A DNA stretch of 49,581 nucleotides from a virus, in IMG/VR virus record IMGVR_UViG_3300026382_000026, positions 1 through 49,581 of that record; one strand, 5' to 3'. A program made the translations under genes and the position numbers. Under the pieces are notes generated by a model. It saw only the letters and a program-made list of their open reading frames with translations. It was not told the DNA's origin and did not search any database. The number at the start of each line of letters is the position of its first letter. Position 1 is the first letter of the stretch. Shown in pieces: positions 2,148 to 49,581 of the stretch.

Positions 2148-3083
2148 TTAAAAACTTGGTATCTCATTTTTCTTTGCCTTTATAAACTCTGATCTTGCTG
2201 CTTGTATAAGTGTAGCAAGTTCATAGTATATCTTTTTAGGTCAGGATATTTTAGGAGCATAATATTCATTTTGACTCACTATCTCTAGTAGCATTCTAAA
2301 CCAATCTTGCCACCTATATTGTCAACTACTAACTGCTTTTACTTTCTTTATTTTGTTTAAAAGAAGTTTTCAATAATATCTTTGCTCTTTTTGAGTTCCA
2401 TCTATAACACCATCATTAAATTCTTTTATAATCTCCAAAAGCTCATTTATCTCTGGATTTCCATATTCTTTCTTTTTATTTCTTACTTCTTTTATCACAT
2501 TTTTTTGATTTGTCAAGTCCGCGGCGGCTTCTTTTAAATTTTCTTGCTCTATTTTTATAATAGGTTCTGTTAAAATTTTAGACGAAGTTTTTTTTGAAAA
2601 AGTAGCACTTTGTGTCTCATCTTTATAAGATGAGATATTATTCTTTTTATTATTCTCTTTTATATTATTCTTTTTTATCTCATTATTTGATGAGGTGTGG
2701 AATTCATTATTTGATGAGGTGGTGAATTCATTATTTGATGAGGTGGAGGTTGATGAGATGGGGATCTCATTATTTAATGAGGTGGAGGCTAAAAATATTT
2801 TTCTTATCTTTCATCATCATACTACCGAATATGTTTCTCTTCTTATTAAACCAACCTTTTCTAATTTACTTAAAGCATTATCTATACTTCATTTACTTGC
2901 TCTTAAAATTTTTGCTAATTGCTCACTTTTGAAATAAAATCATTTATTTTTCGTTTTATTGTAAAATCTTATAAATCCATATACTAATCACTCTAAAGGT
3001 GTAAGTTTATACCTTTCTACCTCCTCAAGATAAAAAGGTATAAATTCTGGGCTAAATATTACCTTATCGTTTGTCAATTCCAT
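2148..3083 (-). CDS. Probable replication initiator / DnaD-like winged-helix protein
   Basis: 311 residues. Residues 1-100 look like a winged helix-turn-helix: FSPEFIPFYLEEVERYKLTPLEG, then a recognition region RASKGSIDNALSKLEKVGLIRRE as in phage replisome organisers. Residues ~101-200 are a low-complexity linker with near-perfect octapeptide repeats (TSSNNEF-type). The C-terminal 110 residues are helical (EINELLEIIKEFNDGV, QYRWQDWFRMLLEIV) and resemble the partner-binding tail of DnaD-type proteins. The start at 3081..3083 was chosen because the ATG five bases upstream is in another frame and soon stops. It has its own consensus promoter at 3116..3143. With the clamp nearby it plausibly loads the host replisome; that role is inferred. 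Confidence 0.65.
2678..2790. repeat. 24-bp imperfect tandem repeat inside the initiator-like gene
   Basis: A unit of about 24 bp containing TCATTATTTGATGAGGTG is repeated three times nearly perfectly and then about twice in degenerate form. The period is a multiple of three, so it encodes an Asn/Ser/Thr octapeptide repeat in the linker of the protein. Repeat-rich DNA inside an initiator gene can also act as an origin (iteron), but nothing here proves it. Confidence 0.85.
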
Positions 3084-3986: not shown

Positions 3987-4007
3987 AGAGGAGTTAATAA
4001 CTCCTCT
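3987..4007 (-). terminator. Rho-independent terminator after the phosphoesterase gene
   Basis: A 9-bp inverted repeat (AGAGGAGTT / AACTCCTCT, 3-base loop) begins at the stop codon of the upstream gene, and the minus-strand transcript continues with CTTTTTATTTT. This closes the long late transcription unit. Confidence 0.85.
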
Positions 4008-4989
4008 AATCAAATGCTATAAATTTAGTTAGTATTTCTGTTTTATCTCATTTTTTCTTTAAATTAACAATCCATCATCAAATAGTATTTCATAATTTAT
4101 ATCTTTTAGCAAGTAGATTTTCTCTCAAAAAAGCACCTGGCAAAAAACTATGTATTCATCTATACATTAAATAAAGACTATCGTGATAATGTCACAATAT
4201 AAAAATATCAGGATCGTCTCATTTATTATAGTTCTCTAAATATTTCTGCAATTTATAACTTTTCGCATAGGCTTGACTTCATCATCAATGCTGCAAATCA
4301 ATAATAAATCAATTTAATATAATTCTTCAATTGTAAAATCACAAATATTCTAAATCTTTTCTTAAATTACTTATAAGATTTGCTATATTTATTCCCACTT
4401 TCTTTAGCCAACTTTCATCGTGATTTCATAAAATATAGTAAGTTTTTCAGTTTTTTAATTTAGGATAATGTTTTTTTATTACTTCAATTTGTTCTTCTAA
4501 ACTATGTTCTTTTAACTCAAAAACTTGTCATTTATAAACATCAATTCAATCTGTCAAATCTCATCAATGTAAAATCGTTTTTACTCACTCATTTTCTGCT
4601 ATTTCATAAAATCTTCGTAATTCTTCAATAGCACATAGTTTATTTCCTAAATGTGTATCACTTATTATTCCAATAACTATTTCTTTATCATCTCATAAGT
4701 TTATCTTTTTACTTCATCAACTCTTTAATTCCTTCCACTCTAGCAATTCTCTTAAATTTTTTAAATTTAATCATTTTTTTCTTAAAAATTTTAGTAGTTT
4801 TTTTTCTTCTTTATTAATTTCTTCTTCTTTTAATTCTTTTCATTTTCTAAACCAATATCAAGCTTGTCTTTCAGACAAAACTATTCATAACTCTTTTTGT
4901 ATTAAGATTTTAAATTGCTCTATTGTTTTTATATCTTCTTTTTTTAGTAAATCCAAAATTTGTCTCTTTTCAGAGTTATTTAATTTCAT
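4006..4989 (-). CDS. Calcineurin-like metallophosphoesterase with N-terminal HTH-like extension
   Basis: 327 residues. The metallophosphoesterase core shows all blocks in order: DTH (111-113), HGGD (141-144), GNHD (188-191), a histidine at 234 and GHYHD (266-270), the residues that bind two metal ions. Several of these glycines are UGA. Residues 1-100 form an extra helical region containing VLSERQAGYWFRKGK, which looks like a helix-turn-helix. Phage members include nucleases of the SbcD type and phosphodiesterases; the substrate cannot be told here. The gene stands alone between two strong terminators (5019..5043 upstream, 3987..4007 downstream), so its expression may depend on read-through or on a promoter I could not identify. 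Confidence 0.88.
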
Positions 4990-6853: not shown

Positions 6854-8263
6854 TTATTTCATAAATTCATCTTGCGATCAAATACTATCAATTTCTGTGT
6901 GTCGATCTAGATACAATACTGGTAAATCAGCGTTCCAAGTATCTTCAGCATCACTTCATAATCTTTTTATTTCTCAAAATACCACTTGCGATAAACTATT
7001 AACAGTATCTATTCTACCAAAATTTAACAGCACGTGTCTACCTTTCATATCTTCTGTTATAGTAAATACTCTTACTTCTTCTTTTAATTCTTTATTTGAA
7101 GATCATACACTAAAAGAAGCAACTCAATCAGTAATAATTTCAACTGGTATTACCATTCGTTTAAATTTTAACTTTATATCTCAAGTAGGAGCATCTGGCG
7201 GTATATAACTATGAATATGAAAAGCACATTTAGAACCATACTTTATATCGTGTGTGAATTGAGTAAAAAAATGAACACTACTATCTTGTCAAGAAGGCAT
7301 TGCTTTTGTTGTTAATATAGGAGTAGATGTTTCCACAGTTACATCATAATTATTAACTGGTATTCAATCTATTCTTATTTCAGTATTGTTTATATTAGTA
7401 GTTCAATTGTTTGTTATTTCTACAGTATATGAACCATCAGCATTTGAAATTACATTTATTGAAAGTTGACTTTCATCATAATATTTTCTAACACACACAT
7501 AATCAACTCTCAAAGGATTAGCACTTGTATCACTATCACAAAACCATTGTAATGGTCAAGTAGAATAAGAAAGCGAAGAAGTAACAGTTTTATTTACAGT
7601 TTTATTAGTAAATTTTATATGTCAACTTTTTAATATAACTTGATATTCATTCCGAGCATTACCTTGTTGGGATCAACTTGGATATGTTATTCCTGTCGAT
7701 ATTGCTTGCGTTCAGCTTCATCTATCAGAAATAAAATATATATTTCATACTTTAAAACCTGAGTCAAAATCATAATTTCAAGAATACATATTCCATTCTA
7801 TAATAGCACCGTCAGGTATACTTAACACACTTTTAGGTCAATATACATTATTTCAACCATTTACCCTTAAAACACTTCAACTTATAGACGAATTTTGAAA
7901 AATCCACTTACTTGTATCTTGAAAATCAAAATCATCATACAAAGTAAATACAGCATCATTATTAGCAGAAGTAGATCAAGGTTTAAAAATTAATTTTACA
8001 CTTTTCCCTGCTTGTATTGATAATTTTGTCCGCACAGCATTTTTATAAACTCAATAAGGTATTGTTTGTTGAAATACTTGTTCTGCAAGAGAAAAATTCA
8101 CACAATTAATAAACTCAATCCTATTACTTGTTTGGTCATTTCGCACAGTAGCACTATCTACAAGTCTTAAACTTCCATCTGGTGCTTGAACTAGTCAAGG
8201 TGGTAATCATCAGGTTATTTTTGCAGATTGTAAAATTCTAATTATTTCCGATATTCATAACAT
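6854..8263 (-). CDS. Tail or fibre protein, 469 aa
   Basis: After a short N-terminus (LPPGLVQAPDGSLRLVD) residues ~110-250 resemble the DUF2341/lectin-like fold found in phage appendages (DDFDFQDTSKWIFQ, then a jelly-roll-like series). The C-terminal part contains KCAFHIHSYIPPDAPTGDIKLKFKR, a pattern common in phage baseplate or neck appendage proteins that begins with a His pair. It is the last tail gene before the lysis cassette. Receptor binding is likely but inferred. Confidence 0.65.
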
Positions 8264-19244: not shown

Positions 19245-19862
19245 CTATCCTCCTGTTGTGTAAGTTCCATATACTTGGTCTATAATCTTACCAAATCATC
19301 ATTGTGCTGTATCTACTAACAATGTGAAACTTATAGGAATAAGTGTTTTCTCTCCTTTCTTGTAAGAATGCTCTACATCACTACCATCATACTTTGCTCT
19401 ATAAAAAATATATAATCTCTTATATTGATAACCTCCCGATTTTCTTTTATCAACCTGAAAAGCTATCATTCTTTCTGGCACTGTATCAGGTGCTTCTATT
19501 TTAACTGTTACTTCATCAGGATTTGTAGTAGTATCAACTGATTGATTTCATAACACCCAAGCAAGATTTAAATTGTCTAAATCATTTTCTGCTAATGCTG
19601 TCTTTAAAGACATCTTCCATTGAGTAATCCATTCATCAATTGGTCATAATACCTGATCTACTTCCCAACTTTCTTTATCATAACCTCTTGTAATTGTTAA
19701 ACCACCATCAGTAGCACCTACATCGTGCCATCAAGTAGTTAAACTTCAATCAGTATTAAACACATCTGAAAATTTTGTTGGTATTGCGGTTCAATCATCA
19801 GCATAAATTAATCTCGCTGCTCCTCAAAAGATGTTTAATTTGTTTTTTACTATTCAAGCCAT
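19245..19862 (-). CDS. Major tail (tube) protein
   Basis: 205 residues. The line WHDVGATDGGLTITRGYDKESWEVDQVLGPIDEW is typical of tail-tube proteins, and the C-terminal half forms beta-hairpins (YQYKRLYIFYRAKY, PISFTLLVDTAQGGFGKI). It forms the helical tube of the tail. Preceded by an A-rich stretch and a TTATAGT element at 19898..19904. Glycines favour GGN (13) over UGA (9) in my hand count, unlike most genes here. Confidence 0.78.
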
Positions 19863-21348: not shown

Positions 21349-21900
21349 TTAAACAATGTAAATAGTAGCTCAATTAGCTATACTATTCCAAAAATCTTTT
21401 ATCCTATCTTTATATTTACTTTTTATATCTCAAAATTCAATACTTAATTGTCATACTTTCTTACTTTTTATATTTCATTTCTGCTCACTTTCATAAAATT
21501 TATCTTTCACTATTTCACATACTAACAATTTATAATCTTCAGGAATAGTATCAAAATATCAAACATTTCATTTTATTTTAAGTTGTCATCATCAAGAAAA
21601 TCATACTAACAATTTTATACTAATATCATTAAGCTTGTATCACTCTATATTTTCTTCAGTTCAATCAACATTTACTTTTTTTAATTCTACAAGCTTATTT
21701 AATGGTCTATACTCTTCTTTAATTGTTATTATATTTTGTCATTCAACTGGATTTTCTATCCATTCACAAACTTCTTTTAACAACTTGCGTTTTCATATTA
21801 TCTCTCTTTCTACTCAATCAAGAATTAATTGAAGCTTATCATCATATTCATTTGTAGAAATTCACATAAAAGACTTTACTGTATCTAAACTTACATACAT
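21349..21900 (-). CDS. Head-tail connector (gp6/DNA-packaging adaptor-like)
   Basis: 183 residues. MYVSLDTVKSFMGISTNEYDDKLQLILDGVEREI is the classic start of gp6/gp15-type adaptors that sit under the portal, and later IPEDYKLLVCEIVKDKFYE gives the second helix. Insertions around residues 60-100 make it longer than usual (~100-110). It is the first gene after a terminator that closes the head operon, so it may have its own promoter which I cannot pin down. Confidence 0.75.
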
Positions 21901-21920
21901 TGCTTTTACTTTAAAAAATA

Positions 21921-21943
21921 AAGAGAGGCTCCACACCTCTCTT
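21921..21943 (-). terminator. Rho-independent terminator after the capsid operon
   Basis: An 8-bp stem (AAGAGAGG / CCTCTCTT, 7-base loop) followed in the transcript by TTTATTTTTT. It lies just after the 85-aa gene downstream of the capsid and separates head from connector genes. Confidence 0.88.
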
Positions 21944-22259: not shown

Positions 22260-23165
22260 CTAGTAATCTAATGTTGATGTATAAGCAATAGCATCTTTTT
22301 CTTGAACAGCCATAGCTACTCTTGTAGACAACACATAAAATATCTCTTGTGTTCTTATATCCTTTTGTTTCTCCATCATTATTTGTCTATAAATACCTAC
22401 TACAAAATTTTGTTTAGGCATCAAAATAGCCCACTTGTCATCTAAAAATGGCACAGGCACTATTTCAATACCAAAAATTCTTAGATTTTGATTTGTTGTT
22501 AATACATTATCTCCTAAATTTGTATTTCTATCTGTCAAACTATCTCTATAATCTTGCTCTGCATTAGCTCAAACAAAATATACTAATTGACTTCTATTTC
22601 TTCTATATTTAGTAGGCAACGCTCTCAATAAATCAGAGAATACTTTCTTTGATAATTTTTCACTTGATGTATAAGTTACTGCGTGAGTTCCTCAAGATTG
22701 ACAAATTTTTTTAATTCAATCCATTAAAGCAAGATAACTATCTGTTGTATTACTTGTATCACCATTTATAGCCAATTCTTCCAAATCATTAGCAAATTGT
22801 GCTGCAACTTCCTTCATAATTGTATCTGCTAATTTTTCTTTTTCTACATTATCCTCTAACAAATCATAAGTTAATGAAAAATCTACCATAATTTTTTTAG
22901 CTGACAATTCTATTTTATCAGTTCCAATTGAAGTTACTGGTGCAACACTTGATCCTTCAGTTCACGCTCTTGCTACTCTACCTATTAAAATCAATTTAGG
23001 TATCTCCATTGTAGGAGCGTTCATCTTAATAGTTCTTGCATACTTCAAAAAAGTGCTTTCGTCAACTACATTTGTAATAAATTTATTTGCTTGTTCTGCA
23101 TTTAATAAACCTCCTCCTGTAAAATCACTTGTTGCTATTTTTTGTAAAATATCCTTTTGTGTCAT
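22260..23165 (-). CDS. Major capsid protein (HK97 fold)
   Basis: 301 residues. An N-arm (LQKIATSDFTGGGLLNAEQANKFI), the E-loop region with RTIKMNAPTMEIPKL, a spine helix (EKEKLADTIMKEVAAQFANDLEELAINGD) and the P-domain (VYFVGANAEQDYRDSL) follow the HK97-fold capsid plan; SYLALMDGIKK after NGDTS is typical of the P2/HK97-like capsid group. Next to it is a combined protease-scaffold. Glycine codons prefer GGN (11 GGN, 4 UGA by hand), unlike tail and lysis genes. A TTATAGT element lies 32 bp upstream of the ATG. Confidence 0.9.
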
Positions 23166-23196: not shown

Positions 23197-23203
23197 ACTA
23201 TAA
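23197..23203 (-). promoter_or_regulatory. Candidate late-promoter element TTATAGT before the capsid gene
   Basis: The minus-strand heptamer TTATAGT overlaps the stop codon of the scaffold gene and lies 32 bp before the capsid ATG. The same heptamer is found at 19898..19904 and 31212..31218, also 36-52 bp before structural or packaging genes. Whether it is a promoter is unproven. Confidence 0.4.
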
Positions 23204-23758
23204 CAAGTCAGCAAAAGATATATATTTACTATCAGATTTTTTATCAAGCTGTTGTGTAGATCTTCAAGCTTTTTGTATCATCTTCTCAATTTTATCAATC
23301 TTTTCAATATTTTTATTAAAAATAATTTCAATAGCTTTTATCAATTTTTCTTGCCTACTTTCAAGGTCTTTTATACTTACTTTAATTATTTCCTCTAACT
23401 TTTCAACTTTTTCTAACAATTCTTTATTTTGTTTCTTCAATTCTTCATATTCAACTTTACTTACTTCTTCTTTATTTTCCTTGTCTTTTATTTCTTCTTC
23501 TACTCACTCTTTACTTTCTTCATCATCAACATTATTTGTTTTTTGAACTTTCTCTTCTACATTTTCTTCTCTATTTTCTGTCTCATCATTTTCTTTTCTT
23601 TCATCTCATTGATTTTCAACTTTATTTTCTTCTATTTCTTCATTTTTTGTAATTTTTTCTCTATCTTCTATTTCACTTTCTTCCTGAAACGATTTAATTA
23701 AATCTTCCTCTTTTATCTCTCACTTTATAAACTTTTTAAGTAAATCTTTAATTCCCAT
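23198..23758 (-). CDS. Nested scaffold protein, internal start (putative)
   Basis: Same frame and stop as the protease fusion, starting at Met299. It would give 186 residues: highly acidic 20-100 (EEN/EDE-rich), then a coiled coil with repeated KIEKI/EKLEE heptads and a C-terminal helix SKYISFADLL that may dock to capsid. Scaffold must outnumber protease in a prohead, so an internal start is economical. The start is inferred from domain boundary only; no Shine-Dalgarno is present, as at most genes here. Confidence 0.45.
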
Positions 23759-24652
23759 TGTATCTAGATTTAAAGATTTAAAACTTTCTATAACTGCTTC
23801 TGGGTTAGCAGGTCTATCTACTAACGAAATCTCAATCAATTCTAATTTTGTTATTCTAAATACTTCTTTTCAATCTACTATTTCATATTTTCAATCTAAT
23901 ACTCTTCATCATATACTAAATCATTTGTATACTCACTCTTTTACTTTTAACCGTGCCTCATCATCTACTATCTTCGCTTTTATATAAACTGCCTTATTTT
24001 CATCATCAAATTTATAATCTACTACAGTTCATACTGCTTTTGGTTGATGCATTTCTCTTATGTTAGCAAATTTCATATAATCATCCCAAGCCTCTTTTAC
24101 AGCTTTATAATCTACTATATCTCATACACTATCTATTATCTCTTTTGTCGCTATTCACCATACTTCTCTTTTTTCTTCATTTTTACTTTTCCCTAAAATA
24201 GCTCAATAAAACTTAATCACTTTGTCACTATTCAAATCTTCTCAATTTTCTATCTTCATTAACTCATAATCATTATATATTTTCCCAAATTCTGGTGCTT
24301 CTTTTCACATTTCCTCATAATGTTTTTTCAAATGATTATAAACTGCCTTTTTTTCACTTTCAGGAATAGACACTCATCACCTTGCTCATAACAAAGCAGC
24401 CATAGCAGCAAACACTCATCTTGGAACTGTCTTAATTTGTCAATCTATTACATCGTGATGTGGTAGTTTATAAGCAGTTACATTTTCTTTTTTATTTTCA
24501 TCATACCAAGTAAAAAATTCTTTATACTTACTAAAATCAATATTTCAATCCTTATTTTTTGAATATTCTGCCGCGTGTTTTCTTGCTAATGCTCAATCCC
24601 AAGCTCTATTCTCATCAGCAAGTGGATATTTTTTGTATTTTACTACACTCAT
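23198..24652 (-). CDS. Prohead protease fused to scaffold, 484 aa
   Basis: Residues 1-140 resemble the N-terminal module of XkdF-like proteins (AWDGALARKHAAEY, YKLPHHDVIDG, GVSIPESEKKAVYNHLKKHYEE). Residues 165-300 are the serine protease: His202 (REMHQPKAVG), Ser246 (VYKGFSIGG) and ELIEISLVDRPANPEA, the standard herpes/HK97-type layout. Residues 299-484 are acidic and coiled-coil, typical of scaffold. The ATG at 23756..23758 (residue 299) could start a separate scaffold of 186 aa, as in lambda C/Nu3. The protease matures the prohead. Confidence 0.85.
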
Positions 24653-26210: not shown

Positions 26211-27665
26211 TTATAAAAGTGCTTCTTTTTCTGCTTCCTTTTCTGCTAAATCCTTTGCTCTATTTAACAACTCACTTATTTTTTGTATTTCATTATCTAC
26301 TTTTCATAATAACGCTTCTTTTTGTTTCGTCTCTTCTTCAGACAATTCTTTTACACTTATAAGCATCTGTCATAATCTCACAAAATTTTCCTCTGCTCCT
26401 GCTAAAGGTTCTCATTTCTCATCTACTAAAATATCTAATCACATCATTTGTCTTGCTTCATTTATACTTATCACTCACTTATCTATCAATTTATTTATCA
26501 CTTCTGAAATATTTGTCAAATCTCTAAAATCTGGGCTATTAGCCACAAGTTTAGCATTTATTCAAAAATCTTCTCTAATCATTGTTGTAAAAATCTTACA
26601 TATTTTCTTTTGTAAAGGCACTATTTCTTTTTCATAAAACTTCTTTTCTTGCTCTATACTATTAGCTCTATTAGCATCTTCCACAATTCACAACATTATT
26701 GGTGGGACTCCAAAAGCTACGATTACTTCTTTATCAACTTTATCTAAAAGCTCCAAATAACTTCATTCCCTTATACTATCTCATATCTTTTGTATCTTTA
26801 CCTCTCATTGACTTGTATGTATAACTGGTATAGCATTCCATTTCCTATCTCTTCTTAAATCTTCCAAATAATGTTTTAAAGTTTCTATACTCTCTTTTGT
26901 TAAGGGTGCTCATTGAACCACAATAGCAAATTTATTCAAAAATCAACTTTCAAACTCTGAAATATTAAACTCTTCAATATATTTTCTGATTAAATAACTT
27001 TTTAATAAAGTTATAGATGGACTCAATCAATACCACAAATTTCAAGGATTTGGTAATTTTAACCATATAACCTCATTAGTAGGCAATCACATTTTTTCAT
27101 TTAAATCTGGATCGTATCAATTATCTTTCGTTCTATCTTCTGCTCTTGGTAAATATCTATTATACCAAATATACTCCTCTCAAATCTCATCAATCACCTG
27201 TATAAATCTTTGTCAAGTTCTAAAATTTTTTCAATCTCATCTAGCAACTCTTATCGTATCGATAGGAATATGATACAACTCTTGCACTTCTCACGTTATA
27301 GGATTTCTTACTACTTCAATAGCAGCATTTCAAGTAGTGTAAAGGTCAATAATTACATCATAAATTATCTCCTCAAATGTTTTTTCTGGATTACAATTTT
27401 CAAAAAAATCTTTTACTCTTTCCAAATCTTCATCTCTTACTTCTCAATCTGCCACAACACTATATCAATGAAGAGTAGCATTTTTCGCTATTAACTCAAT
27501 ACTCTTATTAGCATAAGTATTAATCTCATAAATTTTTATCAAATCTCTAAAACTATAAGGTGGTTCTATATACAAATCTTTTATTCAAGAAAATTTATTT
27601 TTTGTCCTTTCTATCGCTACACTTGAAGTATCAACCTTTATTAAATCTACATTTACTCACTTCAT
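26211..27665 (-). CDS. Portal protein
   Basis: 484 residues. Landmarks: IYEINTYANKSIELIAKNA near residue 50, LYTTGNAAIEVVRNPITGEVQELYHIPIDTIRV, EVIWLKLPNPGNLWYGLSPSITLLKSYL and KEVIVAFGVPPIMLGIVEDANRANSIEQEKKFYEKEIVPLQ, all in portal order. The C-terminal 40 residues form a coiled coil. The dodecameric portal is the DNA gate of the head. The ATG overlaps the epimerase stop by 13 bp. Confidence 0.93.
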
Positions 27666-28666
27666 AGCATTCTATTTAACTTATAAAAATTTTTCAACTG
27701 ATTAAATACATTTTCTAAATCTAATTTCAATTTTCTATTAAATACTCTCTTTATTTTTGTTATATCACACCAATATTTTTCTAAATCTCACTCCCTCCTC
27801 TCTACAAATTTATACTCAACATCTCATACAATTTCAATAAATTTATTTACAATCTCTAACACACTTATAGGCTGTCAAGTTCATAAATTATATTCTCATC
27901 TTTTCTTTTTAACCTCTGGTAAAACATCTAAATGAAATTTTACCAACTCATTTACATCTACATAATCTCTTAAAGCAGTTCAATCTGGTGTTTCATAATC
28001 ACTTCCAAAAATTCTAAACACTTTCTTATTTAAATAAGCATCAAACAAAGCAGGTATAATATTACTCTTTCAATAATCTCACAATATTCATCTTGCTCAT
28101 ATCGGATTTCAATATCTAAACACATAATAAGATAAATCATACCTCTTACAAATTCTACTTATCTCAGTATCACTTACATACTTTGTATATCAATAAATAT
28201 TTTCTGGGGCTTCATTTAAATCTTCCTCTTTTAATTTTCATTCTTTTCAATAAGCAGCTATACTACTTGAAAAAATAAAAGGCACTCTCAACTTTATTGC
28301 CAACTTTAACATATTGTGTGTTCATATTATATTTACATTCATATACTTTATCGGTTCTTTTTCTCATTCTTCCACACTTTTCAAGGCAGCAAAATGAAAA
28401 ATAGCTTCCACGTTACTATCTCCCTCATTTACTAACAATATCTTTTCAATCTCTTTTTCATTAGTTACATCAATATCATAAAATTGCATTTGTCATACTC
28501 ATCATCACATCTTCTTATAAAAATATTTTAACACCTTTTCATAAATAATTTTAGAATACACACTCATATTATCAACTACAACCACTCTATATCATCTTTC
28601 CATAGCTTCATCTGTTAAAATACTACCTATATATCATAATCATCAAGTTACTATTATCGTCTTCAT
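27653..28666 (-). CDS. galE: GalE-like NAD-dependent UDP-sugar 4-epimerase
   Basis: 337 residues, extended SDR family. Residues 8-15 are GGLGYIGS (NAD-binding GxxGxxG), S133-135 the catalytic Ser region, Y158xxxK162 the catalytic pair (IYGYTK), then FRYGNPIGARG and GTALRDYVDVNELVKFH, GTGQPISVLEIV, the UDP-sugar-binding part. Three of four N-terminal glycines are UGA. It interconverts UDP-glucose/galactose or the GlcNAc/GalNAc pair. Position between terminase and portal, with 13-bp overlap into the portal gene, is unusual; it must be expressed late. A metabolic role in decorating virion or cell surface is inferred. Confidence 0.9.
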
Positions 28667-28691: not shown

Positions 28692-30419
28692 TTACTTAAT
28701 CAAATAAACTCAACTTCAATCACTAAATCATACATCTTTTAAGCAACTATATACTGCTCAACATACAGCATCTGCTACATCTTTACTTCATTTAGGTGGG
28801 TGATCTACCTTTTTTCAATTAACTATTTCTAAATTTTCTAATTCAGTTTTCAATATCTCTGGAAATCTAGGTAACTCTAATCTTTCTTCATATAACAAAC
28901 TTTTAAGAGTTTCATAAGGTTCTAAAGTAGTATCTACTGATAAATACTCCGCTCTTATACCTCTTTGTTTTAACTGCTGTATAGTATCAACAGATTGAAA
29001 TCCATCAAGAGTTACTCTTCAAATAGTCCATCAAGCATCTTTCAACATATATATCTTTTTTCTAAATTCACTTATCATTATTTCTCACTCAGCTCAAGCA
29101 GTTACTCTCTCTACAAATTCAGTAGTTATTATTGGCCTTCATTCATTATCATATCCTTTCACTCTTACAACAGCTATTCAAGCAGCATCTCATTTTCATC
29201 ATCTATTTAAAGCAAGGTCTATATGTATATAAACAGGTTGAGCTGGCGGATTATTAACATTCCAAACTCAATATTTATTCACCCTATTATACGCTTTTCA
29301 AATTGCTTTGTAAATATATTGTCTCAACTTAATAAACGCCTCAATATTACCTATCGGATAAGCTCACAAATCTCTTACTGCTTTTTCTGGTGTCAACAAA
29401 AAAGTATTATAATACTCCATAGGCACTATCCAATACAAATCATTCAACTCTCTTTTTTTAAACTCTAAATATTTTTTTTCATACTCTCATATTTCAATTC
29501 ATAATTCTTTTAAATCTTCTTCCTTCAAAATTTTATAATTTTTAAAATCAAACACAAATACTTCATCTCAAAATTTACTTCTATCTTTAAATTTCCAAGT
29601 AGGACATTGAACTCAATAGATTATTTCAGGATATTCCTTACTCTGTTTATATTTTCTCACTGTAAAATCATCTTCATATCTTGGTGATGATATAATTATT
29701 ATCTTACCTTTCTTACCAAATCTTGACGCTAATCTGTTTTTTAAAGTGTTATAAATTTCATCAGCTTGATCCCTCTTATCTGTTGTTTGATAAAAAGAAG
29801 CTTCATCTAATATACCGCAAAAAATATTTCTACCAATAGGTGTCGTCTCCGCACTATTTCAACTAAATAATCTTACTATCGGATAATAAGCCCCTTTTCA
29901 TTCTATTATTCCTCATACCCTCATTAATTTTCTATAAAAAGTCAACTCTCTTTTCTTTATTTCTAACTTTCATTGTTGCTTTATAATCTTATTAAACCAA
30001 GGAGAATTTAAAATTAAACTCTTTATACCTTCGAATACTACTTGCTGTGCTTGTGTAGCTGTTAAACCCATATTAATTATCTCTATTGGTTTATCTCTTG
30101 TAAGTCAAAAATATTGATGCGGATCCTTCATACAAAGAATATGATGTGCTATATACGTAGCTACTACTTGTCAAAAAAATGATTTTCAACTTCATATTCA
30201 CGCTAAAATTACTATTTCCTGATAATTCCTCGAAAAAGCAGCTTGTCATATTTCTATTATTTTATCATATACATCTTCTCATAATCATAAATACTCATTA
30301 CTTAAACAAAATTCAGCAAAACTTGCAGGTGCTTCTACATAATAAGGGTGATATTTTAACCATAATGCTTTTTCTTCTGGTGTAGCAAAATATTTACTCC
30401 ATTTTTCTAATTTCTTCAT
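28692..30419 (-). CDS. terL: Terminase large subunit
   Basis: 575 residues. Walker A at 73-80 (AGIGSGKS, all three Gly are UGA), Walker B about 199-206 (IFCGILDE), coupling motif near 243-246 (ISSP), and nuclease acidic residues D401 (YIHIDLALNRGGKGD) and D411, with a late DAV near the C-terminus (VADAVCGAVY). It cuts and pumps DNA into the prohead. This gene alone argues strongly for UGA = Gly. Flanked by putative TerS (25 bp upstream) and GalE. Confidence 0.96.
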
Positions 30420-32749: not shown

Positions 32750-34282
32750 CTAAATATCATTTATATCTAATTCTTTTCTCTCTAATTTTTCTTTCGTGCT
32801 ATTTCATAAACACACTTTCCGCATATCTCTTATCTCTTTTAAAGTCTTTCAATAATACGGGTTTTCAAAAATTGGTAACGGATTTTTTCATATATCTTTT
32901 GCTCATATACATTTTGCTGCCTTATATAATTGAAATTGACTTAATGATTGTGACTTCAATCTTGATGCTAATTCAAATGTCTTACTTATCTTCTTCATAG
33001 TAGCTATAAGTTTTGCCCGTTCTATTTGCTTTTCTTTTCTCAAAACCTTAAAAGCGTCTTTCACTAATTGTATATTTCATCTTCACAATTTTGTAGCATC
33101 ATTCTCTTTCTCTACTACCTCCTGAAAATAATTCCTATACTTCATAGCAACAACTTTTACATCATATTCATCTTTTATATACTTTCTCATAAACTCTGTC
33201 TTTTCTCGTGCTTCCTCATAATTTTCTATAATCCATCTTAACATTGCTCTTGCCTCATCTATATTCTTATAAATAAACGGATATTCTTTTGGTATCCAAC
33301 TTCTAACCCGATCATAATCAGGAAAAACTAAAATCACTCACGCATACAACATCTCCATATATCATACTGGAAAACCTTCTGTCTTACTAGCTACTAATCA
33401 AACGTGACATTTAGTGGCTTTCTTTAAATAATCTTCTCTTCATTGATTTTCAAAAATTTTAGCAAAATCTAGCCTTTTTAAACTTTCAGATACACTTTTC
33501 TGATTTCAAATAGCTCATCAAGTAGTTATCCAAACATCTACATCATATCAACCAGCTTTTATATAAAAATATTCATTAAAAATTATATCTGTCTTCTTTC
33601 AATCATTTATTCTTCCTCAATAATAAAGCGTTTTAACCTGTCTCTTCCCTTCTAATCAAACTTTTATCTTATCTATATACTCTGTATCTACTCATAAAGG
33701 CAATACCTTTGCTTTTTTAAGAAACTCATCTAATACACTTCACCTAAAATATTTAGTTAATTGTCTTAAAGCCGCCATTTTCTCGTGTTCTCATAAAAAA
33801 ATCGGATAACCTAAAATATATCAAAAATTATAAAGAATATATCACACTGGGTTTATTTTCTCCTCTCTCTCCTCCCAAACTTTTTGCTCTAAAATAAAAA
33901 TTGGTATATCTTGATACTGACTTCTTAAATCTACTATTCATCTCTTCATAGAATACACAATTTCTGGACTATGAACAAAAACACAATCTATCGGATACAA
34001 TCAAAACATTTGATTAAAATACGAAGCAAACTCCTTAAAATCAAAATTAAATACATAATTATAAAAATCAAACTTAAACACTTCTTGCTCTACATATGAA
34101 ACTTTCCACTCTAATCATCTTTTTTCCATTCTTTTTCTTATCGCTTGCATTATCTCACTATCTGAAAACCAATAAAAAAAATCTTCTTCTGGTGTATAAG
34201 CTACGAGATCTTCCATCGCTAAATATCAACTATTAGAATTCAACCTCTTTAATCACACAAGTGGCACATTTACTATTCTCAT
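32750..34282 (-). CDS. Glycosyltransferase, GT-B (GT1/GT4-like)
   Basis: 510 residues. The N-terminal half is a Rossmann-like acceptor domain. From residue ~200 come VLPLGVDTEYIDKI, LYYGGRINDGKKTDIIFNEY and, near 295, HVGLVASKTEGFPVGYMEMLYAGVILVFPDY: the EGFP-E-AG line is the donor-sugar E(x7)E region of GT-B enzymes. The last 110 residues are extra helices. It transfers a sugar to an unknown acceptor (virion protein, DNA or surface). Co-transcribed with small early genes behind the promoter at 35368..35395. Confidence 0.85.
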
Positions 34283-35417: not shown

Positions 35418-36206
35418 TTAAAATAAAGATAGCTGTTTAATAATTCTCTTCTTACCATCATCTTTTGTAGTATAATTAACATCTATCTTATCTTCTTTCA
35501 CTTGTATTTTATCTGTCATTATTCTTTTATTAAAAAATCCTCTTTTGTTGTAATAACTTATAGTTCAATTAAATAAAAGCTTGTCTGTAATATCAATTAT
35601 ATAAGGCACCTGTATACTTCATAAAAGCGGCATTGTAGCTAATACCTTAAAAACTTTTCAAGTTAAACTATTTCAGTTAAATACTATTCAAGTTAATCAA
35701 TGTAGTTGCAAATTTATAGCTGTCATTAAAAAACATCTTTCGTCTATATCTACTGCCATAAATAACACATCTTTTTTCCTATCCTTTAACATCTTACCCG
35801 CTAATAATAGCATTCTTCAACTACCACTTGCTGGATCTGATATTGTGATCTTCTTTCCTTTCTCTACTTCTCATAAAGTTATCCTTGTCATAAATTCTAC
35901 TACATTGTAAGGAGTAAAAAATTGTCAATGTTCTCAATGAGTTATATACTGCTCATATATACTTCATAGTATATCATAATACTGATTTTCTTCCTGTAAT
36001 TCTATAAACTTATTTAAAGCTTCTCATAAAATCTTACCTTCCTCTGCTGTATAACTATCTAACACTTTCTTATATTCTTCTATTTTTGCTCCTGATAAAA
36101 ACCAAACAATTCATTTTAACCAATCTTCAAATACTTTATGAAAACTTCTTTTAGTTGCTACTCTTTCAAGTATTTTTACTATCTCTTTTTCTACTCCTCT
36201 ATTCAT
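35418..36206 (-). CDS. HsdM-like N6-adenine DNA methylase, divergent, with clamp-binding tail
   Basis: 262 residues. SAM motif I at 124-130 (SDPASGSGRMLL), preceded by the type I signature GQFFTPYNVVEFM (94-106) and followed by DIDERCFLMTAINLQLHGL and a GNSLT line. The catalytic N/D-PP-Y/F motif is not visible in the last 85 residues, so activity is doubtful, or the motif has diverged. The protein ends in QLSLF (258-262), the consensus sliding-clamp-binding peptide. Modification would protect phage DNA or block host function. Located between a terminator and promoter 35368..35395. Confidence 0.82.
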
Positions 36207-40417: not shown

Positions 40418-40718
40418 CACCTAATAAAATTAATGAATTAAATCTTGTAATTACAAGATTACTTAAATCAATACAATCAACTTTAATCTTCAAAGGTAAC
40501 TCAAATCGCATTTTTTCTCACTGATATACTTTTACACTTACCACTATAACTCAATCTAATTCTAAAAAAGAAGCATCACCTATAAACTTCAAACCTTCAT
40601 ACTCACTTTCTAAATGTAACTCAATTTTATTGTATCAATAATTGCTTACTATCTCCTGTATATCATTAATAAATGTAACTAAATACTTTACAATTCTTTG
40701 CTTATTAATTACTTTCAT
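40404..40718 (-). CDS. Hypothetical protein, 104 aa
   Basis: MKVINKQRIVKYLVTFINDIQEIVSNYGYNKIELHLESEYEGLKFIGDASFLELDGVIVVSVKVY: alpha-beta with several consecutive strands; no family recognised. Contains a 20-bp perfect palindrome near its 3' end (40441..40460). Overlaps both neighbours (10-14 bp). Confidence 0.62.
40441..40460. repeat. 20-bp perfect palindrome
   Basis: AATCTTGTAA and its reverse complement abut without a spacer. It is inside a coding region, 24-43 bp before the nucleotidyltransferase ATG on the minus strand, where it could be an operator or a translation-blocking hairpin. Chance cannot be excluded in AT-rich DNA. Confidence 0.6.
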
Positions 40719-41170
40719 TCACTCTTTTTTTTAGTATTTAAATTTTTCTCTAATTCTTCTACTTTCTTCTCATAATATTCTATCATTTCTTTTAACTCTT
40801 GCTTCGTATACCTCTTTACACTATGTGCCTTCCTTTCTAATTCATCTATAAACTTTTCTCAATACTCTTTTATCATCTTTCTTGTATAAACTATATAGTT
40901 TCATCACTTCATAATATTACAGCTATAACATTGTGGTCTACAATTATCCTCATCTCGTCTTGTAGCATTATGTCTTCTTGAAAAAAAATGTCAACATTGT
41001 ATCTCTTTCCGCGGCATTCTCTTTCAACAAGTATAACAAGCTACGTATCAATTAGGATCAGCATACTTCAATCTTATATATTTAGAAAAAACACTATCTA
41101 ACTTCTTTTTTAAAGAAGAAATAGTCTCTTTCTTTTTCTTTCATCTTATTTTTTTTCTTTTCATTTTCAT
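40709..41170 (-). CDS. ninG: NinG-like recombination endonuclease (Rap)
   Basis: 153 residues. SLKKKLDSVFSKYIRLKYADPNGYVACYTCGKRMPRKEIQCGHFFSRRHNATRRDEDNCRPQCYSCN matches lambda NinG almost word for word in its conserved spacing: CxxC (44/47), CGH (58-60), NCRPQCYSCN (C76, C80, C83). NinG (Rap) is a structure-specific nuclease for Holliday junctions and D-loops. It is encoded with the annealing-like protein elsewhere, fitting a recombination-dependent replication mode. Confidence 0.92.
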
Positions 41171-45662: not shown

Positions 45663-46295
45663 TTAAAATTTTAACATTCTTAATAATCTAAACTGCTCTC
45701 AATATTTCTCTCACCATCAATATCAACAATACAGAGCATATTCAATTATTCACTTCTCATTTGCCCAACTTTCATTATTATACTGACTTTTATATTTCTT
45801 AAAAGCTTCTATTTTCTTCTTCAAATGTTTTTCTTCTAAAAATTCAACTACATTCGGGATCCATCATTCAGGATACCATATCAATGGTGGATATCAATAC
45901 TCATAAACTTCTGGAACATTATACCTCTTCTTTAAACTTATCCTCAAGGCTGTTAAAGCAACTTTATTTACTATCTCGTGATCCTGATGAACCGATTTAG
46001 CTGGAATATACACTTTATGAGGCTTAAAATTATTTATCTCTTTATCAATTTTATTTACCATCAATCAATATTCTATAGTATACAATTTAGTATCCATTCA
46101 AGGAAATAAAGGTTTTTCATATGATGCTCATAACACTTTCATTGCCTCATAAAACTCTTTTTCTCTTATATCATTCTCTGGAGTAGTAAATAAAAGCACT
46201 CTTATATCATTTCAATCTTCCACATATTTAGCAATAGTTCAACCCATTCAAAGAGTTTCATCATCTGCGTGTGGTGTCAATACTAATATTCTCAT
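45663..46295 (-). CDS. PIG-L / LmbE-family deacetylase
   Basis: 210 residues. The zinc site is complete: PHADDE at 8-13 and SVHQDH at 101-106. The family removes N-acetyl groups from GlcNAc-type sugars, including activated or lipid-linked forms. Together with a WbqC-like gene upstream it suggests synthesis or alteration of a sugar. Target not readable. Just 18 bp upstream of the large fibre-like gene. Confidence 0.9.
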
Positions 46296-46360
46296 CTTCT
46301 TTTGATTTTAAACAAATAAAAAATTTTTTCAAGTTCTATTTTTTTTTATATAAACCTAAC
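46296..46360 (-). other. 65-bp gap without recognised signal
   Basis: AT-rich spacer between the WbqC-like and PIG-L genes. On the minus strand it has TTGAAA and, 18 bp later, AAAAT; this is a poor promoter match, so I call nothing. Confidence 0.3.
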
Positions 46361-47329
46361 TTATATTGTTATTATTCATTTAAATCTAATTCAAGACAAA
46401 CAATATAACTGAAATCACTCTAAAACTTTATAAAGATTTCAAAAATCCTGTAAAATATAATCTAAACTACTTAATCAAGGTATAAAATACTTATATTCCT
46501 TTTGTTTATAAGGCAAAAACTCAAAATCATATACTAAAATAGGAGGCATATACTTTACAGCATCATCTTTAACCATATACTCAAAAGTTCAAAAATTAGA
46601 ATTAACAAACACAACTCTTCTTTTCATAAAATCAACCCGCTCTTCAAAACTAGCTCACTTTTTATTTAATAATTCTACTTCATTTTCTATCTCAACTATA
46701 TTAGGATTTTCTACTCACATTCAATAAGTCTTCCTAAATATGTTTTCAAAATTATACTCTGTTATATTCCTCATATCTTTCAAAATATTTATAAGCAATG
46801 TAACTAATTTATAAGTCTTCTTTCACTCCTTCTCATAATCACTGCTTTTTACAAACTCAATATAAAACCAATCTCTTAAAATAAACTCATTAACATCTGA
46901 CAAATATTGTCAACTATCAATAAATTTTATTAATTTCTCTAATAAAACTGAATACTTAATATTGTAGTATCTAGGCAGTATATCTAAATTGTGTCAAATT
47001 ACTAACTTCTCATTTATTGGCTCTATCTTATCTTTGTTTTTTAGTTTTAATCAAATCTCTATGATATTTTTCTTATCTCTTATCTTATTTTTTTCTACTC
47101 GTGTTCATCTCTCAAACTGGTAATCATCAAGACTAATAAATAAATCACTGATATATATTTTTGCCATATATTTAGCCCACGGAAAAAAATGCGGTTGGTG
47201 AGCACTTATTATTAATCTATCTCATCTTAAAGTCTCTAACATAATCTTTTGAAATTCTTTACTGTCTGGTGTATAAAATTTCATATTATCTGGCAAGTAA
47301 AATTCACTACCTTTATATAATACTATCAT
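46361..47329 (-). CDS. WbqC-like protein
   Basis: 322 residues. Residues 40-90, LIISAHQPHFFPWAKYMAKIYISDLFISLDDYQFERGTRVEKNKIRD, fit the WbqC family line (iHQPnYfPwlgyf.Ki..sDvfi.lDdvqf.r....RnkI). WbqC proteins are found in O-antigen and glycan gene clusters with no proven biochemistry. The start overlaps the upstream gene's stop by 7 bp. Confidence 0.85.
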
Positions 47330-48787: not shown

Positions 48788-49510
48788 CTAAAAAGGTATT
48801 TCTTCTTCCTCTACTGGTTTATCTAATCCTTTTAAACTATTATTTACTGGTTTATTAAAATCTTCCTTTAATTTTTCAATTGCTTTATCTTGTGTAAATC
48901 ACTCTTTTAATAATTCATTTATTCTTTTCTGTTCTTCATAGCTTAACGCTACTCAATATTTCTTTTTAGAATAATCATACACTTTTTTACTTATTCCTTC
49001 TCAACTTATATCACTTTTATATTCTTCATTTACCGCATTATCAAGAGATTGTTTCTCTTTTAAATTTACCTTACTTGTTTCCGCTTCTTGTGTAGCATCA
49101 ATAATTTCATCAGCTGTTACCGCCCCTCAAAACTCTATCCCATATCAAAGATAACTTAATGCCTTACCAAGAGCTATTGACTGACACTTTTCTAAAGCTT
49201 TTATATTATCTACTATCTCTCCCTTTTTATTTTTTAATTTCTTTTTCACTTCAGCTATACCTATACTCTGTATATCTCTTCAATCTCTTTCAACTTTTAA
49301 AATTGCTTTCACTATAACGCTTTCTTCATCATTTTTTAAAATCTCAAAATCTATTAATCTTATATCTTGCTTCGCTAAATAAATTTTTCACTCTACCTTT
49401 AAATAATAATTTTCTTTCGTTTCCCACTCTCACGTTTGTTCATTAAAGAAAGCACTTCTAATTTTAATTAAAAATCCCTTTTGTTCTAATTCTTTTTTAA
49501 GTTTTTCCAT
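48788..49510 (-). CDS. Putative single-strand annealing / ssDNA-binding protein with SSB-like tail
   Basis: 240 residues. The core IGIAEVKKK...ALEKCQSIALGKALSYLGYGIEFGGAVTADEI matches in shape the Rad52/ERF/DdrA-like annealing proteins of phages (LEkaeTsAiGRALa.lGYG...asaeEi). The last nine residues are PVEEEEIPF, like the acidic tip of SSB proteins (DDIPF) that recruits repair enzymes. A linker of ~70 residues separates the two. It is first gene behind the promoter at 49545..49572. Exact family uncertain. Confidence 0.68.
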
Positions 49511-49581
49511 TTTTTGATTGTTTTTAAAATATAAAAGTGTTTTTATTATATTCAGATTATTTTCTTTGTCAAGTTTTTTTT
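49455..49581. repeat. Direct terminal repeat, right copy
   Basis: Identical over all 127 bases to 1..127. Collapsing one copy gives a circle of 49,454 bp and makes the annealing-like gene and its promoter continuous. Confidence 0.95.
49545..49572 (-). promoter_or_regulatory. Early-type promoter for the annealing-protein operon
   Basis: Minus-strand TTGACA (49567..49572), 16-bp spacer, TATAAT (49545..49550); it is the right-hand copy of the promoter at 91..118. It starts the operon of genes running down to about 43,038. Confidence 0.88.

Follow-up and report, generated by a model that had tools for sequence, protein, structure and literature searches.

A tailed phage with UGA as a glycine codon, CGA and CGG as probable tryptophan codons, and a capsid gene depleted in UGA

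The virus record IMGVR_UViG_3300026382_000026 of IMG/VR, which we analysed in its entirety and refer to as the window, comprises 49.6 kb (positions 1 to 49,581) and has a GC content of 26%. It begins and ends with identical copies of an exact 127-nt direct repeat (1-127 and 49455-49581), through which the record closes on itself. As 127 nt is also a common overlap length of assemblers, we regard the window as probably a complete circular assembly, and thus as a complete-looking genome. The phage is of the tailed, siphovirus type, and all 62 genes in the open reading frame list that we used lie on the minus strand. In searches against Pfam and PHROG models, its structural genes match a terminase, a portal protein, a Mu-F-like protein, an S78 protease, an HK97-type capsid, a head-tail connector, a tail tube, a tape measure and Dit, and the remaining assignable genes encode holins, a DnaN-like clamp, NinG, a ParB-like protein and a replication initiator, as well as several sugar-related proteins.

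The large terminase subunit (28692-30419; 575 aa; phrog_2, E 1.2e-16, and phrog_17415) matches 373 phage records in tblastn, and contains 34 in-frame TGA codons; under table 11, its coding strand holds no open reading frame of at least 80 aa within these coordinates. The other genes central to this analysis are those for the portal protein (26211-27665; PF04860, E 2.4e-41), the S78-type prohead protease (23198-24652), the major capsid protein (22260-23165; phrog_1623, E 7.5e-87, and PF05065), the head-tail connector (21349-21936; PF05135 and phrog_442), the tail tube or major tail protein (19245-19862; PF25681 Phage_TTP_17, E 3e-8, and phrog_476), a calcineurin-like phosphoesterase (4006-4989; PF00149; 27 TGA) and an N6-DNA-methylase-like protein (35418-36206; PF02384, E 1.4e-15; 13 TGA).

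The sugar-related genes encode a GalE-like NAD-dependent epimerase (27653-28666; PF01370, E 8.5e-42; 25 TGA), a PIG-L deacetylase, a WbqC-like protein (46361-47329; PF08889) and a weak glycosyltransferase match (32750-34282). The PIG-L gene adjoins that of WbqC (45663-47329), a pair that is also found on a Mycobacterium branderi plasmid (L218), and the other two lie away from it; together, the four could possibly form a glycan-modification set. Seven distinct perfect sigma-70 promoters (TTGACA, 16 bp, TATAAT) are present on the minus strand, with -35 elements starting at 49572 (equivalent to site 118 in the terminal repeat), 42983, 39225, 37856, 36818, 35395 and 3143. Most of them sit within a conserved intergenic repeat of about 84 nt, and all are located upstream of presumed early genes; the structural operon and the plus strand are devoid of them. 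The replication-initiator-like gene (2148-3083) harbors four near-identical 24-nt repeats at 2680-2790, which encode an octapeptide repeat. Finally, the proteins are very rich in Lys (11.7%) and Glu (8.8%) and poor in Gln (2.8%) and His (0.9%), a composition that may reflect the low GC content or a warm habitat.

The initial annotation had proposed that UGA is read as glycine throughout this phage, and the retranslations and alignments that it called for bear this out. Across the 62 genes, we count 796 in-frame TGA codons against 253 GGN codons; TGA occurs in every gene and makes up 76% of all glycine codons, so that the glycine content of the proteins is 6.7% when TGA is counted and 1.6% when it is not. 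Reading frames of at least 150 aa cover none of the window under table 11 (coverage 0.00, not a single such frame), 0.01 of it when TAG is taken as sense, and 0.78 when TGA is; the stop codons of the genes are TAA (43) and TAG (19). Likewise, in alignments with standard-code homologs of the terminase, portal, capsid, protease and other proteins, TGA columns face Gly in 118 and Trp in two of 342 ungapped cells, against a Gly background of 5.7%, while TGG columns align with Trp, as previously noted. When each column is given a single vote, code inference assigns Gly a score of 153.7 and the next residue -5.0 (148 window columns); pooled over the code-25 phages described below, Gly scores 588.1 (377 columns).

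These codons occupy the positions where glycine is expected. The three glycines of the terminase Walker A motif AGIGSGKS (G74, G76 and G78) are all encoded by TGA, and, with lower-case letters marking TGA, the epimerase reads TggLgYIGS and the phosphoesterase HggD and gNHD, all as the initial annotation described; in the methylase motif, DPASGSg, this holds for the last glycine but not for the other. Even with its TGA sites masked as X, GalE still matches PDB GalE structures (E 5e-33), and the masked sites mostly face Gly, at nucleotide-binding and other conserved positions. While bacteria more often reassign UGA to Trp (PMC8629427), a table 4 reading with a Mollicutes-like host is contradicted by the TGA columns, with Gly scoring best by a margin of about 158 units in the 148 window columns, and we reject it as having a negligible probability. 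At the level of sequence comparison, the role of UGA as a glycine codon in every gene is thus established against both Trp and stop.

Since the window contains no tRNA gene according to ARAGORN and Rfam, and since TGA is found in replication and late genes alike, UGA must be decoded by the host, and constitutively so. The DnaN-like clamp alone has 24 TGA codons, other replication genes carry TGA too, and the TGA share of glycine codons is 0.81 in virion genes when capsid and tail tube are set aside, compared with 0.76 in the other genes. Phages that live in standard-code hosts and reassign a stop codon with their own suppressor tRNA are known, this mode having been proposed for code-15 and code-4 phages (Borges 2022, as cited in PMC10746230), and one Absconditicoccaceae phage does carry a tRNA-Gly(TCA) (PMC13059738). 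For the present phage, we nevertheless reject such self-recoding as highly improbable: the record closes on itself without a tRNA gene, and TGA is found in every gene rather than concentrated in late ones. Among bacteria, UGA is known as a glycine codon only in Absconditabacteria and Gracilibacteria (PMC8629427), which, together with the lack of a decoding tRNA, supports the host type suggested by the initial annotation. A pattern search for tRNA-Gly(UCA) returned ten matches in genome_contigs, about the number expected by chance and none of them in Patescibacteria, and none in viral_contigs.

With a DnaB Walker A pattern containing TGA glycines, we obtained three matches, one of which is a real code-25 phage (IMGVR_UViG_3300019730_000002, 36.8 kb; hereafter G003). 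Its phosphoesterase is about 49% identical and its NinG 38% identical to those of the window. An alignment search with the phosphoesterase yielded four further contigs, G004, G005, G006 and G007 (the last being IMGVR_UViG_3300028549_001305), of which G005 and G006 are sister phages, and a search with the G003 capsid yielded two more code-25 contigs, L226 and L228. The closest relatives found for the phosphoesterase (4006-4989; L130:15024-15875) mostly come from code-25 phages that belong to different lineages, and this gene may be useful as a marker for the group. The window's terminase and capsid, used as queries against viral_contigs and the phages collection, gave only standard-coded or distant relatives and no close code-25 cousin. 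Likewise, a pattern for the terminase Walker A motif with its glycines as TGA returned only contigs that we judged by coding density to be of standard code, and a GNHDE pattern returned G003 again and one standard-code contig (G008), without any new code-25 phage. Where classifiable, the capsids of the other code-25 phages belong to families other than that of the window; for the capsid candidate of G007, no homolog was found in the phages collection or in Pfam.

In Absconditabacteria, Codetta predicts from bacterial genomes that not only UGA but also CGA and CGG are reassigned, the latter two to Trp (PMC8629427). The codon usage of the window is peculiar in this respect: it has one CGT, one CGC, 22 CGA and 28 CGG codons, a distribution that departs from that of its remaining fourfold boxes, where T and A dominate the third position (P=1e-22). 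Its CGA:CGG ratio of 22:28 also contrasts with 548:96 for AGA:AGG. For the code-25 phages, we aligned CGA and CGG columns with homologs that use the standard code and scored the majority residue of each column. Twelve of these columns are aromatic and one is R/K, as opposed to 15 and 179 for AGA/AGG (P=2e-11); by the same scoring, TGG columns are aromatic in 46 cases and R/K in six. The pooled inference for CGA gives +28.9 for W and -35.6 for R (19 columns), and when G005 is aligned with its sister G006, CGA codons pair with CGA (28), TGG (10) and F/Y codons (2), never with AGA/AGG, while CGT and CGC remain arginine codons in the code-25 phages. Translating CGA and CGG as Trp also raises the model scores of several proteins, namely WbqC (PF08889, 48.7 to 55.4 bits), NinG (phrog_5034, 117.0 to 121.4), the G006 cytosine methylase (145.8 to 150.3) and the G003 terminase (phrog_38407, 62.5 to 69.5). 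As far as comparative sequence evidence goes, these results show that CGA and CGG are tryptophan codons in a group of related code-25 phages.

For the window phage itself, this reading is probable. Its individual sites are consistent with it: CGA77 of WbqC faces F/M/W/Y; in NinG (40709-41170; PF05766), CGA72 faces F7/W2/Y1 and never R, and CGG54 faces TGG in G005; and in a 469-aa protein (6854-8263), the C-terminal part of which is shared with a tail-fibre-like protein of G003, CGA369 and CGA454 each face a Tyr codon in that phage. CGG234 of the prohead protease faces W/I/R, and reading it as W makes the XkdF model PF14550 appear in the results. The alternative, plain table 25 with UGA as the only reassigned codon, CGA and CGG as Arg and a gracilibacterium as host, draws on the small number of window columns with code-11 homologs (just four for CGA and two for CGG in a window-only inference), on the models of Dit and the phosphoesterase, which score slightly better with Arg (90.1 against 88.5 and 46.2 against 45.7, respectively), and on the prediction that some Gracilibacteria retain CGG as Arg (PMC8629427). 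Few as the window columns are, five are aromatic and one is Lys, which differs from the 15:179 of AGA/AGG (P=3e-5); moreover, a third-base bias cannot explain 28 CGG next to a single CGT, and CGA reads as Trp in the related phages. We therefore consider plain table 25 unlikely. Of the initial assignment to code 25, the reading of UGA stands, but table 25 is probably not the full code of this phage, as CGA and CGG behave like Trp codons. The combination of UGA as Gly with CGA and CGG as Trp has been inferred for Absconditabacteria, so that, judging from the code and the literature, the phage most likely infects a bacterium of that group. G007 uses mainly CGT for Arg (61 codons), with six CGA and three CGG, unlike the other code-25 phages, and its codon usage perhaps represents an earlier stage of the reassignment.

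UGA is not evenly distributed among the genes of the window: its share of glycine codons varies more than expected by chance (chi-square, P=3e-7). The major capsid gene has 4 TGA among 15 glycine codons, compared with a share of 0.77 elsewhere, the lowest value among the 40 genes with at least eight glycine codons, and the tail tube gene follows with 9 of 22. Taken together, these two genes have 13 TGA in 37 glycine codons, as opposed to 302 in 375 for the other virion genes (P=2e-8), and the capsid gene's neighbors are full of TGA, with 26 of 28 in the portal and 16 of 16 in the connector gene. The same depletion is found in the other phages, with TGA counts in the capsid gene of 0/32 in G003, 1/33 in L226, 1/18 in both G005 and G006, and 4/29 in G007, where the capsid is assigned by position only. 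In Fisher tests of capsid versus remaining genes, this corresponds to P values of 6.7e-5 for the window, 9.0e-13 for G003, 2.7e-9 for L226, 2.4e-7 for G005, 9.2e-8 for G006 and 1.1e-10 for G007, and in each of these six phages the lowest TGA share is that of the capsid gene. L228 is the exception with 10/28, which is still below the level of its genome (Fisher, 0.043). UGA is also the most strongly avoided of all codons in these capsid genes, with 10 observed and 76 expected over five phages.

Selection for translation usually shows itself in a preference for ATC, TTC and similar codons. The capsid genes other than that of the window do prefer ATC, TTC, TAC and AAC over ATA, TTT, TAT and AAT, while that of the window avoids UGA without this general codon bias. 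A low UGA content could also result from recent acquisition of the capsid gene from a standard-code phage, in which case no selection would be involved. The window capsid, which shares 32-36% identity with its counterparts in standard-code phages and lacks other codon bias, could, taken by itself, have such an origin. As a general cause, we deem it improbable, because the GC3 of the capsid genes is near that of their own genomes, and because the G003 and L226 capsids have remained at zero and one TGA in spite of 104 synonymous codon differences between them, at sites that were able to switch to TGA in L228. Furthermore, the depletion recurs across unrelated capsid families, and the codon preferences of the other capsids point to selection for translation. 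An avoidance of UGA at critical sites only is not favored over a general cost of this codon: at conserved glycines, the use of UGA was not found to be lower in the window's other genes (P=0.20), and the code-25 relatives showed only a weak effect of this kind (P=0.016). While the pattern itself is observed, its cause is likely a slower or more error-prone reading of UGA compared with GGN.

In the explanation that we propose, the phage would have adopted the genetic code of its host. A host tRNA-Gly(UCA) and a tRNA-Trp reading CGA and CGG would serve the phage, which brings no tRNA of its own, and the host, going by what the literature describes, would presumably lack RF2. In ordinary genes, no codon is used for glycine as often as UGA, and yet it would be a second-rate one. 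If it is read more slowly or with more errors than GGN, the cost should matter most in the capsid gene, because the loss of time or yield per codon would scale with the number of copies made. Each virion requires hundreds of copies of the capsid protein and of the tail tube protein. In the capsid genes and, in this phage, the tail tube gene as well, GGA or GGT largely takes the place of UGA, probably because selection has purged it at the highest expression levels. For the window, we hold it to be very likely that this is a tailed phage that uses the code of Absconditabacteria, with UGA as Gly and CGA and CGG as Trp, and that selection has removed UGA from its capsid gene; that a whole group of phages shares the three reassigned codons and purges UGA from its capsid genes, we consider likely, with slightly less confidence.

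Code-25 phages and prophages as such are already known (PMC10746230, PMC13059738), and the impression conveyed by the initial annotation that few such phages have been found no longer holds. According to Liu et al. (2023; PMC10746230), 50 phages of Absconditabacteria have been predicted, most of them in code 25, in addition to prophages; like the window, they have dense in-frame TGA, gene calls that succeed only in code 25, tailed-phage genes, and Absconditabacteria and Gracilibacteria as presumed hosts. In the text consulted, the paper treats UGA only, does not mention CGG or the capsid, and does not report an uneven use of UGA between genes. RSA-ATP1, a tailed phage of Absconditicoccaceae (PMC13059738, 2026), likewise reads UGA as Gly, has a similar size (39 kb) and encodes NinG, but differs in its four tRNAs, including tRNA-Gly(TCA), and in having UGA in 60% of its open reading frames, as opposed to all 62 listed for the window. 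The code that Codetta predicts for Absconditabacteria is the same as the one proposed here, there for bacterial genomes and here for phages (PMC8629427). A parallel for the capsid genes comes from trypanosomatids, where reassigned stop codons are avoided in highly expressed genes; in Blastocrithidia, they are depleted at high expression as UGA is here, although in a eukaryotic nuclear code and not in a phage capsid gene with the code-25 glycine codon (PMC12153298). In the literature that we searched, with most subscription journals and preprints outside its range, we found no report of CGA and CGG as Trp codons in phages and none of UGA depletion in code-25 capsid genes, so that both the reassignment of sense codons in phages and the avoidance of UGA in capsids appear to be undescribed.

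Gene callers apply table 25 to such phages. If CGA and CGG are indeed read as Trp, tens of positions per genome are given the wrong residue in the protein sequences of these phages, and the genetic code itself would serve to mark the host without the help of CRISPR spacers. The group would then provide a phage example of sense-codon reassignment, and UGA, though reassigned, would still be an expensive way for code-25 cells to encode glycine. Its loss from capsid genes suggests that translating a former stop codon continues to carry a cost long after the reassignment, and such a lasting cost would bear both on why genes differ in their use of reassigned codons and on the strength of a recoded host's resistance to phages with the standard code.
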